Assembly: GCF_006974105.1 (NCBI RefSeq)
Contig: NZ_CP036282.1
Span: 992,001-1,056,000 of the forward strand
Source of the DNA: Rhodoferax aquaticus
GTDB lineage: Bacteria > Pseudomonadota > Gammaproteobacteria > Burkholderiales > Burkholderiaceae_C
Length of the DNA stretch: 64,000 nucleotides
Reading direction: 5' to 3'
Shown: positions 41,217 to 46,627 of the stretch, one piece after another
Layout: each line of letters opens with the position of its first letter
How positions within the stretch are numbered: the first letter of the stretch is position 1
Program-made: the position numbers and the translations under genes
Notes under the pieces: model-generated
Told to the model about the DNA's origin: nothing
What the model saw: only the letters and a program-made list of their open reading frames with translations
Database searches by the model: none

Positions 41217-41293
41217 GGGGCGTTAGCTCAGTTGGTTAGAGCAGAGGACTCATAATCCTTTGGTCGACAGTTCAAGTCTGTCACGCCCTACCA
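41217..41293 (+). tRNA. tRNA with CAT anticodon (Met or Ile2), island insertion site
   Basis: A 77-nt cloverleaf with CCA: acceptor GGGGCGT/ACGCCCT (first pair G-U), anticodon loop CTCATAA (CAT), T-arm GACAG-TTCAAGT-CTGTC. It is elongator Met or lysidine-dependent Ile2. The TTGGTCG variable region and TTCAAGTC resemble Ile2 tRNAs I know, so Ile2 is favoured, but not firmly. A TACAAT -10-like box lies at 41198. From the anticodon loop onward the gene is repeated at 46540, so its 3' half is supplied or copied by the island. Confidence 0.95.
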
Positions 41294-41298
41294 TTTAA
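41249..41298 (+). repeat. attL direct repeat (tRNA 3' half)
   Basis: 50 bp identical to 46540-46589, from the anticodon loop (CTCATAA) through CCA and TTTAA. The base before differs (A here, T at attR), fixing the repeat edge. Crossover within an anticodon loop is typical of many tRNA-targeting tyrosine recombinases. Confidence 0.95.
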
Positions 41299-41315
41299 TA
41301 CCGCGTCAGATATAG

Positions 41316-41352
41316 AAAGCCTGCTATTCAAAAGATAGCGGGCTTTTCTGTT
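41316..41352 (+). terminator. Terminator downstream of the tRNA (island copy)
   Basis: AAAGCCTGCTAT pairs with ATAGCGGGCTTT (one G-U) around a 7-nt loop, followed by TCTG and TTTTT. It lies inside the island and should end the tRNA transcript before the integrase; the original terminator is probably the hairpin at 46597. Confidence 0.75.
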
Positions 41353-41359
41353 TTTGGGC

Positions 41360-41408
41360 TCATGGGGCACTGGCGGGACACTGCGGCAGAATAAGTCAGA
41401 ACAATTGC
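41360..41408 (+). repeat. Left-end island repeat (GGGACACTG type)
   Basis: CTCATGGGGCACTGGCGGG followed by ACACTGCGGCAG and AGTCAGAACAATT closely matches 46399-46447 at the right end (ACTGGCGGGACACTG shared exactly; AGTCrGAACAATT shared with one change). Same orientation at both ends. Likely recombinase arm-type sites. Confidence 0.7.
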
Positions 41409-41480
41409 ACTATTGCTAGCACGCTGCTAGCCCTTTACTAGCGTCACTTTTGGAGCATTGGGAAGCGGTTTTTTGACGTC

Positions 41481-41500
41481 ACTGCCCCGCCAGTGTCCCA
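41481..41500 (-). repeat. Inverted copy of the island end repeat
   Basis: ACTGCCCCGCCAGTGTCCCA is the reverse complement of TGGGACACTGGCGGGGCAGT, the same motif as at 41360 and 46404 but in opposite orientation. Paired inverted and direct copies are common among accessory sites of tyrosine integrases. Confidence 0.65.
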
Positions 41501-41641
41501 ATTTGGTTGGGCAACCATAAAAAACATATATAAAACAACGGTCTATTTAATTAGATCAATGGATTGTTGATCTGTTGTTGCCATTTATGCCCAGTTCCGC
41601 CACACTCCTTTCATTAGTTTTCAATGATTCAAGGGGGCAAC

Positions 41642-42703
41642 ATGGCGGCAATCGAAAAACGGCAGAACGCGGACGGCTCATTCAGCTACAGGGCAAAGGT
41701 TCGGCTTAAAGGCCATGAACCCGTAAGCGCGTCATTTGAGCGCAAGACTGACGCTGTCGAGTGGGCTAAGAAGATTGAAGCGGAGCAAAAGGATCGGCGC
41801 TACTTTGGAGCGTCCAAACGTCATACGCTCACAGAGTTGATTGATCGGTACACCACTGACGAACTGCACAAGCTCAAAAGCGCTAAGACGGTAGGCGCAA
41901 GGCTTGATTATTGGAAAGACTCCATTGGCAAGCGGCTGTTGTCGGACGTAACGCATGACGTGCTTATGAAGGCGCGTGACACGCTGAAGGCCACACCTAC
42001 GGAACGGGGCGGCAAGGTTCGCTCTGGCGCTGACGTAAACCGGACGCTGGCGGCTCTGTCTTCGGCGCTGTCGTATGGGACAAAGGAACTGCGCTGGATC
42101 GCAAGCAATCCACTGAAAGACGTTCGCAAGTTTTCAGAATCAAAGGGACGGGTTCGCTATCTGTCTGACGAAGAACTTCCAAAGCTGTTAGCGGCGTGCA
42201 AAGCTTCAGCCAGCCCCCACCTTTTGCTTGCTGTTTGCCTTGCGCTGTCCACTGGAGCGCGTAAATCGGAAGTGTTGGGCCTATGCTGGAAGCAAGTCGA
42301 TTTGAAGGCTCAGACGGCCCTTCTAGGCGATACAAAGAACGGGGACGCTAGGACACTGCCCGTAGTGGGGACGGCGCTGCAATTGCTCTTAGAACGCGCC
42401 AAAGTCAGAACGCTGAAGGAAGACCGGATATTCCCGCCAACGGCGCGATCCACCAAAAGCGAGTATTTCGACTTGCGGAAGGCTTGGGACGCGGCTGTAA
42501 AGACTGCTGAACTGGAAGACTTCCATTGGCACGACTTACGCCATACGGCGGCAAGCTATCTGGCAATGTCCGGCGTTAGTCCATTGGAGATATCCAAGCT
42601 GCTAGGCCATAGAACAATGGCAATGGTTAGCCGATATGCCCACCTTGCACCGGGGCGCAAGATTGAGATATCGGGCGCTCTGGCAGCTAGATTGGGGGTC
42701 TGA
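41642..42703 (+). CDS. int: Tyrosine recombinase/integrase
   Basis: A 353-residue phage-type integrase that would insert and excise the island. Residues 1-60 form an arm-binding-like domain (GSFSYRAKVRLKG...FERKTDAVEWAKK), ~61-165 the SAM-like core-binding domain, and ~170-353 the catalytic domain. Active-site residues are R207 (GARKSE), K232 (TKNG hairpin), H297-R300 (HDLRH), H323 (LGH) and nucleophile Y332 (SRYAHL): all present. ATG 41642 is chosen over 41624 because AAGGGGG lies 4 bases upstream. It sits next to attL, as usual, and overlaps the next gene (TGATG). Confidence 0.96.
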   Translation: MAAIEKRQNADGSFSYRAKVRLKGHEPVSASFERKTDAVEWAKKIEAEQKDRRYFGASKRHTLTELIDRYTTDELHKLKSAKTVGARLDYWKDSIGKRLLSDVTHDVLMKARDTLKATPTERGGKVRSGADVNRTLAALSSALSYGTKELRWIASNPLKDVRKFSESKGRVRYLSDEELPKLLAACKASASPHLLLAVCLALSTGARKSEVLGLCWKQVDLKAQTALLGDTKNGDARTLPVVGTALQLLLERAKVRTLKEDRIFPPTARSTKSEYFDLRKAWDAAVKTAELEDFHWHDLRHTAASYLAMSGVSPLEISKLLGHRTMAMVSRYAHLAPGRKIEISGALAARLGV

Positions 42704-43416
42704 TGGCGCACATTAAAAAGTTTGATACGAATTGGTTGGATCAGGCTTGGCGTATTAGTAGCGTAATCGCTGACATGCCAGATAGCCCACCTATGTCACT
42801 AGTTGAAGGTGTAGGCAAGCCACCACAATTGAGTGATCTACAAAGGACTTTGATTGAATTGCTTCAGGATCACATTGAAGTGTTCTTGCAATACAGGTCT
42901 AGGCTCGTTCACAAAATCACGGTCACATTGCCGGACGGGGCAAAAGCCGACATTGCTCCGCAGTCACGCAATCCAGTCGCAACTGCAAAGACACTGGCAT
43001 TGCTGCAGAAAATCGGCGTCAAGTTGAAAGACGTGGATTTGTGGGCCTATGACGCGCACATGAAGCTCGGGCGCATATTGATTGATCGTTATGTCTGTCC
43101 AGAGTGGAAGCGGCAATTGCCCTTAATCGTAGCTTCTATTAGTGGAGAAACAACCAGCCAGACGGCAACGCTCAAAGCCAAACAAACTCGCAAGGTTGAT
43201 CGTAGAAGCACCTTGACAAGGGCAGTCGCAGAACAAAGGCGGTTTGATCCGTTTGCTTCGGCTGCTGAAATATTGGATCGTCTGTGCGGCGGCGATGTGG
43301 TTAGAGAAATGAAGGGCGGACGGGTTTGGTACTGGGACGTGAAGGGCGATCTAAAAGACATTGGCCTTGATAGGTTCGAGACAATTTTCGGAGAGCAAAA
43401 ACCTTCCACGGGTTAG
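42703..43416 (+). CDS. Island hypothetical protein, 237 residues
   Basis: Unknown cytoplasmic protein whose ATG overlaps the integrase stop, so the two are co-translated. The N-terminal ~130 residues are helical with conserved-looking aromatic patches (NWLDQAWRISS, DVDLWAYDAHMKLGR). A basic linker (LKAKQTRKVDRRSTLTRAV) is followed by a compact C-terminal segment (PFASAAEILDRLCGG, then GGRVWYWDVKGDL) that could be a winged-helix-like DNA-binding domain. No signal peptide or membrane helix. A recombination-directionality or replication-related role is possible but unsupported. Confidence 0.7.
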   Translation: MAHIKKFDTNWLDQAWRISSVIADMPDSPPMSLVEGVGKPPQLSDLQRTLIELLQDHIEVFLQYRSRLVHKITVTLPDGAKADIAPQSRNPVATAKTLALLQKIGVKLKDVDLWAYDAHMKLGRILIDRYVCPEWKRQLPLIVASISGETTSQTATLKAKQTRKVDRRSTLTRAVAEQRRFDPFASAAEILDRLCGGDVVREMKGGRVWYWDVKGDLKDIGLDRFETIFGEQKPSTG

Positions 43417-43431
43417 CCGGGTAACCAATAG

Positions 43432-43764
43432 GTGCATTTTCAAAATCCTTTTACTCCAAATGTCGCAGGAACAATCCAGCGGTTGGGGGCACAAGGAACT
43501 GACTTGGAAAAGCAATCTTCACCCAATCTCGCCACGGTCGAGAACGCAGCTAAACACTTCGCCAATGCCGGACAGACGCCCGGCGCTATTCGCTGCAACG
43601 TCTTCAAAGCAGATAGCCGTCTGAACTCACGCGGCGAAACCATTCAAGGTAACGGCCTAGCGGCTCACGGCGCAATCATTCGCCGTGGTCGCCGTGTCCT
43701 GATTGATCTGGATCGCTATGGCGCATGGCTGGCAGGTCAAGCACCAGAAAGCAAGGTGGCGTAA
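43432..43764 (+). CDS. Excisionase/HTH-like small protein
   Basis: A 110-residue protein from a GTG at 43432; later alternative starts are possible. The segment NLATVENAAKHFANAG, then AAHGAIIRRGRRVLIDLDRYGAWLA resembles MerR/excisionase-type helix-turn-helix proteins, where a helix pair is followed by 'RxGRRVLID...W'. It would suit an Xis or regulator of the island. It ends immediately before the ATG of the next gene (TAAATG). Fold assignment is by eye. Confidence 0.6.
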   Translation: MHFQNPFTPNVAGTIQRLGAQGTDLEKQSSPNLATVENAAKHFANAGQTPGAIRCNVFKADSRLNSRGETIQGNGLAAHGAIIRRGRRVLIDLDRYGAWLAGQAPESKVA

Positions 43765-44076
43765 ATGACGAACTCCACCAAAACAACGCTTAAGCCTGCT
43801 AGCAAGTCGGCACACAAGGAAGCCCAATATCAGCGAGTCGACAAAGGGTTTGATTACCCCGGCAAGCTCATATCTACCATTGACTTCCGCAAGTTGGGCG
43901 TCATTCACCCGTCCGGACGTATCAAGGAAATGAACGAACGGCACGGTTACAACATCGCCAAGGTTGATCAGCGCACCGTCTACGACGATCAAGGCTTTCC
44001 ACACCCGCGCATTGCCTTCTATGAGTTGATCGAGCGTCCCCATAGCGCTACGTCAAAAGTTGCGGAAGGACACTAA
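43765..44076 (+). CDS. Small helix-turn-helix-like protein
   Basis: A 103-residue basic protein. FRKLGVIHPSGRIKEMNERHGYNI, interrupted here as FRKLGVIHPSG and RIKEMNERHGYNIA, resembles the HTH_39-type winged helix in which a short helix is followed by 'RIxELxxxGxxI'. The following strands (RTVYDDQGFPHPRIAFYEL) would be the wing. It probably binds DNA, as a regulator or recombination accessory factor. It starts directly at the previous stop codon. Confidence 0.6.
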   Translation: MTNSTKTTLKPASKSAHKEAQYQRVDKGFDYPGKLISTIDFRKLGVIHPSGRIKEMNERHGYNIAKVDQRTVYDDQGFPHPRIAFYELIERPHSATSKVAEGH

Positions 44077-44155
44077 CCATGCCGTCAATACTGCACATTG
44101 CGTTACGGATAAAGCTTGCTGTCCTGACATTCCTACAGCGCGGAAGGATCAAACA

Positions 44156-44713
44156 ATGATCCATTCATTCAATGACGACTTCCGCTTTTCAGATACACCA
44201 GCGGCCTATGAGTTGGTAATCAGGGCGTGCAAAGCCGAATTGCCGGACTGTATCGGCCTGAAGCGTGCAAGCCATGCCGAAGACAAAGCAGGCGTTGATT
44301 TTTGGGCACATATGCCGGACGGCTCACGCATTGGCATTGATCTGAAGCTTCGCCGCAAGGACTACGGCGCTCAGTACGGCAAACCCTTGGATTGCGTTGT
44401 TGAACTTGACTGTGCTGGCTCGCATGGTTGGTTAAACAAGGCTGGTGGCGCTGAACTGATCCTGTTTGCAGCAAGTGACACCGGGCGCTATTTCATGGTG
44501 GCGGCTAACGAACTTCGTGCGGCTGTGATTACGGGTCTTCCCCGTTGGATTGCGGCAGGCAAGGTGCACGAACTGGAAACCACGTCCAAATGGGACAAGG
44601 GCCAGGACGGAAGGCAGTGGCAATCTAAGGCTGTGGCGATAGGCTCAGATTTGATTCAACGCCAGATACAGGCGCTGAACTCTTGCGCTGCTGACTATCA
44701 GACTCCGCTATGA
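44156..44713 (+). CDS. PD-(D/E)XK-like island protein
   Basis: A 185-residue protein from the ATG at 44156, which has GGAAGGA upstream; the frame extends to 44060 but without support. Residues 40-64 contain AEDKAGVDFW, then IGIDLKLR, giving D48-x13-D62-x-K64. This is the spacing and strand-hairpin-strand pattern of PD-(D/E)XK nucleases. The rest has aromatic-rich beta/alpha elements (LILFAASDTGRYFMV). It overlaps the relaxase gene by 4 bp (ATGA), so it may work with mobilization, or act as a resolvase, nickase or protective nuclease. No named family recognised. Confidence 0.6.
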   Translation: MIHSFNDDFRFSDTPAAYELVIRACKAELPDCIGLKRASHAEDKAGVDFWAHMPDGSRIGIDLKLRRKDYGAQYGKPLDCVVELDCAGSHGWLNKAGGAELILFAASDTGRYFMVAANELRAAVITGLPRWIAAGKVHELETTSKWDKGQDGRQWQSKAVAIGSDLIQRQIQALNSCAADYQTPL

Positions 44714-45711
44714 GTGCAAGTGGCTTCTTCAAGATGCAAAAGCTCAAAGGCTCTGGCAAGGTCTTGGCAGCGAGTCGCCACAACAAGCGCGCAATACAGG
44801 CAGAACAGGGCGCTGACAGTCACATAGACGCGGCGCGTATCTGTCTGAACCTATCGCTTCACGGGCCTGATTCACCTGAAGCTGTGGCACGTCTCGCAAA
44901 GGATCGCATGGCAGCCGCTGGCGTTAGGCCACAAAAGAAGAACGCTGTGCTGGCGCTGGAACAGGTCTTCAGCTTGCCAGCAAACACCGACATTGATCTG
45001 AAAGCCTATTTCAATGATTGCGTCCATTGGGTGGCGCGGAACTTTGGCGGGTTGGATAACGTGCTTTCTGCTGACGTACACCTAGACGAAAGCGCTCCAC
45101 ACCTGCACGTCTTGATATTGCCCTTGATCGACGGGCGCATGAATGGCAGCGATCTGTTCGGAAATCGGCAGCGCTTGCAATTCCTGCAAAACGACTTTCA
45201 TGCTGCGGTAGCAGGGCGCTATGGGCTTGCAAAGGCTCCGGCAAGGCTACAGGGACAAGCGAAGGCTAAAACGGCTCAGACGGTCATGAATCACATTCAT
45301 GCCACCATTGACACCGCGCAGACTTCGGCGCTATGGCCCTTGATACGCGATTTGATCGCCCGTGATCCCGTTGCTTGCGCTCAGGTCTTGGGGCTGGAAG
45401 TAACCAAGACTGCGGACAAGCCACAACGATCAACGGCGCAAATATTCACAAGCAAGGGCAAGGGTTCAAACAAGCCTTTGAAGCCTATAGGGTTTGCCTA
45501 CAGCCCAAAGCCTATAGGGTTAGAACGCTCTGGAAACAGTCTATCCCTATGCTCTGTAGGGTTAGGCAACAAACCAACCACACCAGCGCAAGCACCACGG
45601 CCTGCTATCCAGCTAAATCAGAACGAAGACACCCGCGTCATTGTTCGTGAAGACTGCGACTTTTCAGGCTGGCAGGACTCCGAAGCATTTGAACAAAGCG
45701 CGTGGCAATAA
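44710..45711 (+). CDS. MobV/Pre-family relaxase
   Basis: A 333-residue mobilization relaxase. Motif I at residues 8-27 (KMQKLKGSGKVLAASRHNKR) and the metal-binding motif HLDESAPHLH at 124-133 (H-x-D-E-x3-H-x-H) are those of the Pre/Mob (MobV) family, which nicks oriT and also mediates plasmid recombination. After about residue 175 the protein is poorly conserved and contains KPIG repeats. At 333 residues it is short for the family, which often has a long C-terminal coiled coil. Its oriT should lie near or upstream of the gene; I could not locate it. Confidence 0.88.
   Translation: MSASGFFKMQKLKGSGKVLAASRHNKRAIQAEQGADSHIDAARICLNLSLHGPDSPEAVARLAKDRMAAAGVRPQKKNAVLALEQVFSLPANTDIDLKAYFNDCVHWVARNFGGLDNVLSADVHLDESAPHLHVLILPLIDGRMNGSDLFGNRQRLQFLQNDFHAAVAGRYGLAKAPARLQGQAKAKTAQTVMNHIHATIDTAQTSALWPLIRDLIARDPVACAQVLGLEVTKTADKPQRSTAQIFTSKGKGSNKPLKPIGFAYSPKPIGLERSGNSLSLCSVGLGNKPTTPAQAPRPAIQLNQNEDTRVIVREDCDFSGWQDSEAFEQSAWQ
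45481..45565 (+). repeat. CCTATAGGGTT repeats inside the relaxase gene
   Basis: AAGCCTATAGGGTT occurs at 45481 and again at 45508, 27 bp apart, followed by a degenerate CTGTAGGGTTAG near 45554. The core CCTATAGG is palindromic. They encode KPIG-F, KPIG-L and SVG-L, so the repeat is seen at both DNA and protein level. Confidence 0.6.
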
Positions 45712-45741
45712 CGCCATTGCTAAAGCAGGACTTTTACAAGC

Positions 45742-46170
45742 ATGACTGAATCAAAAAACAAACGGCCCGGACGGTGGAAAGCTGGCGAATCTGGCAACCC
45801 GGCAGGCAGAACACCCGGCAGCGGACAGCTACAAAAGCTCAGGGACGCAATCGCTGAAGACGTGCCTGAAATATTGGCTTCATTGGTTGACGCTGCAAAA
45901 GGGGGCAACATAAATGCGGCTCGATTGATCCTAGAGCGCGTATTGCCACCACTGAAGGCCATAGAACAGGCTGTAACGCTTCAACTGCCTGACGGCACTC
46001 TAACTGCCAAGGCAGGGGCATTGCTTGACGCTGCGGCCCTTGGAGAACTCTCGCCAGCACAAGCGGCCCAACTGATCGCGGCTGTCGGCACGATTGGAAA
46101 GATTGCCGAGTTTGACGAACTGAACGCACGCATAACCCAACTGGAGCAACGCAATGCAACAAAGTCTTGA
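45742..46170 (+). CDS. DUF5681-like protein
   Basis: A 142-residue protein starting MTESKNKRPGRWKAGESGNPAGR. The 'F/WKxGxSGNPxGR' opening is typical of DUF5681, short proteins found on phages and mobile elements; function unknown. The rest is an acidic/Ala-rich helical region (IAEDVPEILASLVDAAKGG, then a Leu-rich coiled stretch to the end). It overlaps the last island gene by 17 bp in another frame. Confidence 0.75.
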   Translation: MTESKNKRPGRWKAGESGNPAGRTPGSGQLQKLRDAIAEDVPEILASLVDAAKGGNINAARLILERVLPPLKAIEQAVTLQLPDGTLTAKAGALLDAAALGELSPAQAAQLIAAVGTIGKIAEFDELNARITQLEQRNATKS

Positions 46171-46459
46171 AAAACGAGTGTCGGCATTGGAAAAGTCTGC
46201 CCCCCAAGCAGACAAGGTGATCTTCATAATTCTTGTGGGCATGGGTGAAGTCGGCATGGAGATAACCCACATTCGTGACAACCACGGCAACCAGTGGAAC
46301 CGACGTCCTGAAGAAACGGAAGAAGCCTTCAAAGACAGGGCAAAGTCAGAAACACCGCGCAAGGACAATCAGGCTGTCATGTTGTTTGGTGAGATTGCTC
46401 ACATGGGACACTGGCGGGACACTGTGGGACAAACAGTCGGAACAATTCAAAACAATTGA
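46154..46459 (+). CDS. Small hypothetical protein at the right end of the island
   Basis: A 101-residue protein starting MQQSLEKRVSALEKSAP, a short coiled-coil-like opener, followed by VIFIILVGMGEVGME and a charged region (RRPEETEEAFKDRAKSE). No family recognised. Its last ~18 codons (MGHWRDTVGQTVGT) are the GGGACACTGG end repeat, so the C-terminus is dictated by a DNA site and may be dispensable. Confidence 0.6.
   Translation: MQQSLEKRVSALEKSAPQADKVIFIILVGMGEVGMEITHIRDNHGNQWNRRPEETEEAFKDRAKSETPRKDNQAVMLFGEIAHMGHWRDTVGQTVGTIQNN
46399..46447 (+). repeat. Right-end island repeat (GGGACACTG type)
   Basis: TGGGACACTGGCGGGACACT, then GTGGGAC and AGTCGGAACAATT, matches the left-end repeat at 41360-41408. 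It carries three GGGAC units spaced about 11 bp, near one helical turn. A further GGACACT lies at 46524, just before attR. Confidence 0.7.
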
Positions 46460-46539
46460 AAGCACTCACTTACGCTGAAACCCCCATAAACATTGCGCTC
46501 ACTTGTTTTGATTTATTCCAATAGGACACTTGAGACAGT

Positions 46540-46589
46540 CTCATAATCCTTTGGTCGACAGTTCAAGTCTGTCACGCCCTACCATTTAA
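46540..46589 (+). repeat. attR direct repeat (orphan tRNA 3' half)
   Basis: 50 bp identical to attL, from CTCATAA to CCATTTAA. It lacks the 5' half of the tRNA and so is not a gene. It marks the chromosomal tRNA end displaced by integration. Confidence 0.95.
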
Positions 46590-46596
46590 ACAAATG

Positions 46597-46627
46597 AAAA
46601 GGCCTGCGATGTTTCGCAGGCCTTTTT
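46597..46627 (+). terminator. Original tRNA terminator beyond attR
   Basis: AAAAGGCCTGCGA pairs with TCGCAGGCCTTTTT around a 3-5 nt loop: a strong bidirectional terminator. It follows attR at the distance expected for the pre-integration tRNA gene, and also faces the end of the MerR gene. Confidence 0.85.

Follow-up and report, generated by a model that had tools for sequence, protein, structure and literature searches.

A probable small integrative and mobilizable element in a tRNA-CAT gene of Rhodoferax aquaticus with a candidate origin of transfer inside its relaxase gene

The window analysed here is a stretch of 64,000 nt from the chromosome of Rhodoferax aquaticus (assembly GCF_006974105.1, contig NZ_CP036282.1, positions 992,001 to 1,056,000 of the forward strand; coordinates below count from its first letter). 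It contains an island, inserted in a tRNA-CAT gene, that encodes a tyrosine integrase together with a relaxase of the MobV family, and we are fairly confident that it is best explained as an integrative and mobilizable element (IME; iMOB) of the canonical kind, small in size, with a candidate origin of transfer (oriT) lying inside the relaxase gene, mobV. The host is a freshwater-type bacterium whose genome forms one 4.74-Mb contig, in which the element is present once.

The tRNA-CAT gene (41217..41293, plus strand; found by ARAGORN, Rfam tRNA 70.4 bits) is the host gene at attB, its 3' part being supplied by the element. Direct-repeat comparison placed the core repeats attL at 41249..41298 and attR at 46540..46589, both on the plus strand, identical at 50/50 positions and spaced 5,291 bp apart. 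The attL repeat starts at the 33rd base of the gene; as ARAGORN sets the anticodon at 41251-41253, and anticodons are numbered 34-36 in tRNAs, this is base 32 in tRNA numbering, just as the first-pass annotation of this DNA had it for its perfect 50-bp repeats. Such a repeat starting within a tRNA gene is not a matter of chance, because all three related elements in tRNA-CAT genes show the same, with repeats of 47, 48 and 53 bp. The two top-ranked stem-loops of the element region are terminator-like hairpins, one carried by the element just past the restored tRNA (41315..41347, plus strand) and the other outside it (46597-46626), both from a stem-loop and terminator scan; the count of terminator-like sites in the region, six against a shuffle mean of 7.4, is itself at chance level. 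Further inside lie repeats of the arm type, TGGGGCACTGGCGGGACACTG on the left (41363..41383, plus strand, with an inverted copy at 41480-41500) and TGGGACACTGGCGGGACACTG on the right (46404..46424, plus strand). In 4/4 CAT elements a similar left repeat begins some 115 bp in from the left end and a similar right one stands near the right end, so that GGGACACTGGCGGGACACT-like repeats stand inside both ends of each. We take them as putative integrase arm sites, by analogy with lambda-type integrases.

Eight genes lie within the element, all on the plus strand and all open; the first-pass annotation had counted nine pointing the same way, of which the common direction stands and the number does not. 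First comes the integrase (41642..42703; PF00589, E 4.8e-32), complete as had been claimed, for which the earliest possible start is 41624, while the open reading frames (ORFs) of two relatives, L037 and L038, begin at MAAIEK, matching 41642; no Arm-DNA-bind_3 match was found in it. It is followed by orf237 (42703..43416), of unknown function, with 66 homologous proteins at E <= 1e-3 including the window's own, and by orf110 (43432..43764), a small protein and candidate excisionase or regulator with only a weak PHROG excisionase match (E 0.06); both recur in two of the three CAT relatives. The next gene, orf103 (43765..44076), may encode a winged-helix protein (PF14090, E 0.021, below cut-off), and has homologues directly upstream of mobV in loci L048 and L056 and a partial one in L036. 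A probable PD-(D/E)XK nuclease-like protein (44156..44713; D48, D62-x-K64, E83), whose top VIA-align match is a homing endonuclease, is present in all four CAT elements, and its gene overlaps mobV (44710..45711) by 4 bp, leaving no spacer upstream of the relaxase gene. Beyond mobV are a DUF5681 protein (45742..46170; PF18932, 3.2e-08), with homologues in L050 and L071, and orf101 (46154..46459), of unknown function, which at its 3' end runs into the right arm-type repeats.

The relaxase scores 101.1 bits against NCBIfam MobV (cut-off 100), and its profile matches PDB 4lvi, a plasmid recombination enzyme that we take to be MobM, at E 4.2e-20. Published accounts, in the parts available, give HxxR, NYD/EL (the latter for MOBV1) and HxDExxPHUH as the MOBV motifs. 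The window protein has HNKR for the first, with H24 and R27 invariant across 16 rows, and for the third HLDESAPHLH, the motif by which the first-pass annotation had rightly recognised it. In place of the second it has NLSL, keeping N47 and L50 and having no tyrosine, which is compatible with cleavage by a histidine, as reported for MobM in the available text.

The element has close relatives in three other tRNA-CAT genes (L036, L037 and L038), flanked by repeats of 47-53 bp and sharing the order integrase, nuclease-like gene, mobV, so that the core gene set does recur elsewhere, a check that the first-pass annotation had named. Identity to the window is 92% for mobV, 95% for the nuclease-like gene and 98% for the integrase in L036, 69% (mobV) and 84% (integrase) in L037, and 64% and 61% in L038; L037 and L038 also have orf237 and orf110, and L036 has orf101 and parts of orf103 and of the DUF5681 gene. 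A deletion in L036 (8001-8996) fuses mobV with the DUF5681 gene, and L036 is likely an immobile derivative. The empty site, named earlier as a check on insertion, was found in a congener (G125, locus L107), where hrcA, the tRNA gene and merR are directly consecutive and the island is absent. The remaining 19 of 20 congener genomes have other sequence before merR, or a whole tRNA was not found, and none of them has the element's genes in the tRNA-to-merR interval. Of the fetched congener loci (L108-L126 among them), 11 have a whole tRNA-CAT and merR, 10 of them with about 0.9 to 8.8 kb in between that is without genes of the window element, and in several others no whole tRNA was found before merR, though part of it matches. 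The spot is an apparent integration hotspot. When the 50-bp repeat was searched for, 83 of 100 congeners gave any match, its tRNA part matching at the tRNA; in some (e.g. G355 and G383) this part has additional matches, which probably fall in tRNA genes or islands other than these.

These ends, the empty site, the gene set and the relatives support the earlier view of the island as an IME defined by integrase and relaxase: it has a site-specific recombinase (PF00589) with defined ends, marked by the 50-bp att repeats and the empty site, and a relaxase of its own (NCBIfam MobV). Family profile searches found no mating-pair, coupling-protein or other type IV secretion system (T4SS) families among the eight genes, in line with the claim that the element lacks secretion genes and depends on a helper. 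Its size had been thought small for an IME, and is not unusual, as most IMEs are 5-15 kb and Tn5520 is 4.7 kb according to the accessible part of a 2017 review (PMC5704250). Nothing points to the decayed remains of some larger prophage: at E <= 1e-3 no phage structural family in PHROGs is matched by any of the eight genes, and phage packaging and replication genes are likewise missing (beyond the integrase there are weak matches only, the best to a protein of unknown function at 0.0011, with major head at 0.035), and no relatives of the relaxase were found in viral_contigs.

Within the 3' part of mobV, a feature that the earlier sequence-only annotation overlooked, lies a candidate nick hairpin (45539..45567, plus strand) of the form TCTATCCCTA-TGCTCTG-TAGGGTTAGG, with one mismatch. 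Just upstream (45485..45538, plus strand) are two copies of CCTATAGGGTT, with the right arm TAGGGTT at 45488-45494 and again at 45515-45521. Among the 12 stem-loops that rank highest in the element region are the two resembling terminators and three within 45461-45567; not one of the 12 falls in the 200 bp that precede mobV. We consider the whole of 45485-45567 a strong candidate for the oriT, which on this sequence evidence is likely to lie inside mobV rather than upstream of it.

The hairpin is widely kept among related relaxase loci. A scan of 65 loci, or 58 distinct ones after removal of seven same-place duplicates, gave the form with a 7-nt loop in 30, and two more (L050, as L158, and L020, as L157) were added after a covariance-model search, making 32/58; a second match in L033 was excluded by the position limit. 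In 27/32 the hairpin falls within the reading frame matched by the mob profile, and in the other five it lies 24-118 nt past the frame end. Its loops vary (TGCTCTG, TCCTGTG, TCTTGTG, CCTTGTG, TGCCCTG), and its arms vary in step (AACC/GGTT, ATCC/GGAT, AAAC/GTTT, AGGA/TCCT, AGCC/GGCT, AAGT/ACTT and others, some with one mismatch). In an alignment of 30 hairpins, of which 28 are distinct, 87.7% of the cells are paired and six of nine pairs change on both sides, with a covariation score of 0.300 versus 0.093 when shuffled; none of 500 shuffles reached that score, and sliding gave at most 0.106. When the 12 arm combinations are placed on a relaxase tree of 30 rows (L134 and L022 left out), at least 14 changes are needed. 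Moreover, in 23/32 loci a further copy of the hairpin's own 7-nt right arm stands in the preceding 200 nt, compared with 7/288 for arms of other classes and 48/6,400 for base shuffles. A covariance model run against 299 genomes (E <= 0.01; its filters miss weak matches) found 18 matches, spread over 17 genomes, 15 of these matches in or just behind mobV: all 14 at 27.3 bits or more, plus one in G114 at 24.0. Thirteen of the 15 are training sequences, the two outside the training set being those in G114 and in G061, where mobV is interrupted by an insertion and its 3' piece keeps the hairpin.

Such conservation could reflect the protein instead, the motif being a conserved relaxase segment, KPIGF..SLCSVG, that the DNA pattern merely follows. 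One frame is indeed common to 26 of the 27 intragenic copies. At the same time, the arms change in pairs, the copy in L019 is read in another frame, five copies follow stop codons, and the isoleucine of PIG is encoded by ATA in 24/25 cases, compared with 100/452 over all isoleucine codons of these ORFs. This explanation is already contradicted by these observations, and we give it hardly any credence. Because of the frames, the copies after stop codons, the upstream arms and the use of ATA, the conserved peptide is best understood as a by-product of a site that acts as DNA or RNA.

Whether that site acts as DNA or as RNA is less sharply decided by the same data, since covariation cannot separate the two. 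The element could be an IME whose mobV hairpin is an RNA structure (an attenuator, a translation control or a protein-binding mRNA hairpin), with the oriT elsewhere; the hairpin does lie on the coding strand within a gene, and no Rfam family matches it at gathering score, so that no other element type is named either. On the other side, the loop and the T that follows it resemble the MobV oriT nicks GTGTG/TT and GTGcG/TT given for pMV158 and IMESag-rpsI in the available portions of the literature, the arms recur upstream in direct orientation, much as MobV oriTs there also hold extra repeats, the hairpin is kept past the stop codon in the five loci mentioned, and the 200 bp upstream of mobV offer none of the best stem-loops as another place for the oriT. 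We therefore consider an RNA role unlikely and favour the candidate oriT, in which, because of the analogy with those MobV nicks, the nick is predicted at G45556/T45557.

On the favoured reading, the integrase would recombine the 3' half of the tRNA-CAT gene with the element's own copy, restoring the tRNA and bringing the terminator-like hairpin along. After excision, MobV would bind the repeated TATAGGGTT arms and the hairpin within the 3' coding part of its own gene, introduce a nick at CTCTG/TAGGG in the coding strand and guide that strand through the type IV secretion channel of a helper.

Several observations weigh against an active IME with its oriT in mobV. The inner three pairs of the hairpin were set by the search pattern and hence are uninformative. 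The 7-nt form is absent from 26/58 loci; three of these have an 8-nt loop, one a weak match and five are cut or deleted, and the rest lack the hairpin, four of them being 37-41% and 13 of them 25-34% identical. Three of the 18 model matches (26.5, 25.7 and 21.5 bits) are without mobV within the fetched 8-10 kb, and two of them outscore that of G114; of the 27 genomes in which MobV was matched, just 14 gave a model match, under filters that miss weak ones, and the 13 that gave none include the most distant relaxases. In the window itself the stem has a T-T mismatch, with its clade mates L037 and L038 mismatched at the same pair, and alone it folds moderately (z -1.67, 14/200 shuffles as good). 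The loops of these elements end in CTCTG or CTGTG, whereas the MobV oriTs in the published text available have GTGnG. The attP joint was sought in viral_contigs and not found. Finally, the host chromosome has no match to VirB4 or VirD4 (PF03135, PF02534), and the element would therefore need a helper. This last point also favours a defective remnant, once mobile and now immobile in this lineage, as does L036, which has lost the hairpin along with its separate mobV. Yet all eight window genes are open, the att repeats are identical, and between the window and L036 nonsynonymous divergence (dN) is far below synonymous (dS), at 0.011/0.346 for the integrase, 0.025/0.502 for the nuclease-like gene and 0.040/0.388 for mobV residues 1-255, values that mostly reflect past selection. 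We regard a remnant as quite improbable, and an IME with its candidate oriT in mobV as the better account.

Relaxases of this type are found well beyond tRNA-CAT genes. When 21 relaxase loci with a tRNA, window included, were tested for end repeats, 13 showed a tRNA repeat of at least 30 bp. Four of these are the CAT elements; the other nine, whose repeats are spaced 4.5-9.2 kb apart, target tRNA-Pro, Lys (2), Phe, Thr (3), His and Val. Each of the nine has a tyrosine integrase that scores above the Pfam cut-off (PF00589) and differs from the window's, 8/9 with Arm-DNA-bind_3 at E <= 1e-3 and four above its Pfam cut-off. Because of these nine, the same relaxase type can be said to go with different integrases and targets. 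MobV relaxases matched in 27/299 genomes of the family (E <= 1e-3) and, at E <= 1e-20, in 9/399 of the order and 2/369 of the class, these samples overlapping. We think it probable that a lineage of small MobV elements, centred on the Burkholderiales and inserting in tRNA genes, moved its oriT into the relaxase frame, that relaxase, arms and hairpin travel as a unit across integrases and tRNA sites, and that the 12 left/right arm combinations in 30 loci mark relaxase-oriT co-evolution. Two single loci deserve mention: a MobV relative with an 8-nt-loop hairpin (L053) sits on a contig labelled Candidatus Saccharibacteria, with binning doubts, and a relaxase gene of this family is split by an insertion with a 447-aa ORF, presumably a transposase, the hairpin being kept in the 3' piece (L158:2928-4303, that is L050:8824-10167).

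If the hairpin is the oriT, the relaxase gene contains the very site on which its product acts. This would account for relaxase and oriT remaining linked while integrases and target tRNAs differ, would offer a natural set of relaxases and oriTs with matched specificities, and would provide a DNA signature for detecting such elements in Burkholderiales. An IME with MobV is known; what is new is where the candidate oriT lies and which host group carries the element. The 2017 review, as far as its text was available, held that no IME described in Proteobacteria was canonical, that is, with its own relaxase and no T4SS protein (PMC5704250). Because a 2021 Mesorhizobium survey describes IMEs with traACD, MOBF or MOBQ relaxases (PMC8627217, in part), relaxase-bearing IMEs in Proteobacteria are no longer new as such, and the present element adds MobV-type ones. 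A literature search, with most subscription papers outside it, gave no description of such an element for Burkholderiales, so the suggestion of an undescribed IME family is plausible.

The closest known systems, several of them described in partly available sources, share some features with the element and differ in others. The Mesorhizobium IMEs are likewise chromosomal proteobacterial elements with their own relaxases, of other types, the accessible text of that survey naming MOBV once, in a family list (PMC8627217). Plasmids of the pBBR1 type (MOBV2) share with the window element a proteobacterial MobV and have 8-bp inverted repeats at the oriT; unlike it, they are plasmids, with oriTs predicted upstream of mobA and a 3-bp spacer, as is the case for the Psychrobacter pBBR1-like oriTs (PMC3632715, in part). 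In the Oceanisphaera MobV plasmid pD, a hairpin GTAAGGTGTA-GTGAG-TACACCTTGC likewise stands upstream of mobV. IMESag-rpsI resembles the window element in having its own MobV relaxase and, in the text available, no T4SS gene noted; in contrast, its oriT lies upstream of mob and, like that of pMV158, has three inverted repeats. Tn5520 shares the tyrosine integrase, MobV and small size (4.7 kb), and NBU2 the tyrosine integrase and the 3' end of a tRNA gene, being likened here by site and not by relaxase (PMC5704250, in part); these three come from Firmicutes or Bacteroidetes. The pMV158 relaxase MobM (MOBV1) is related in its domain by sequence (E 4.2e-20 to 4lvi). According to the available part of PMC5863519, the pMV158 oriT lies upstream of mobM, overlapping its promoters, and differs in arm sequence and spacing, whereas the candidate lies within mobV; at the same time, both have a hairpin on the coding strand, a G/T nick (in our case predicted) in the loop, and further inverted and direct repeats.

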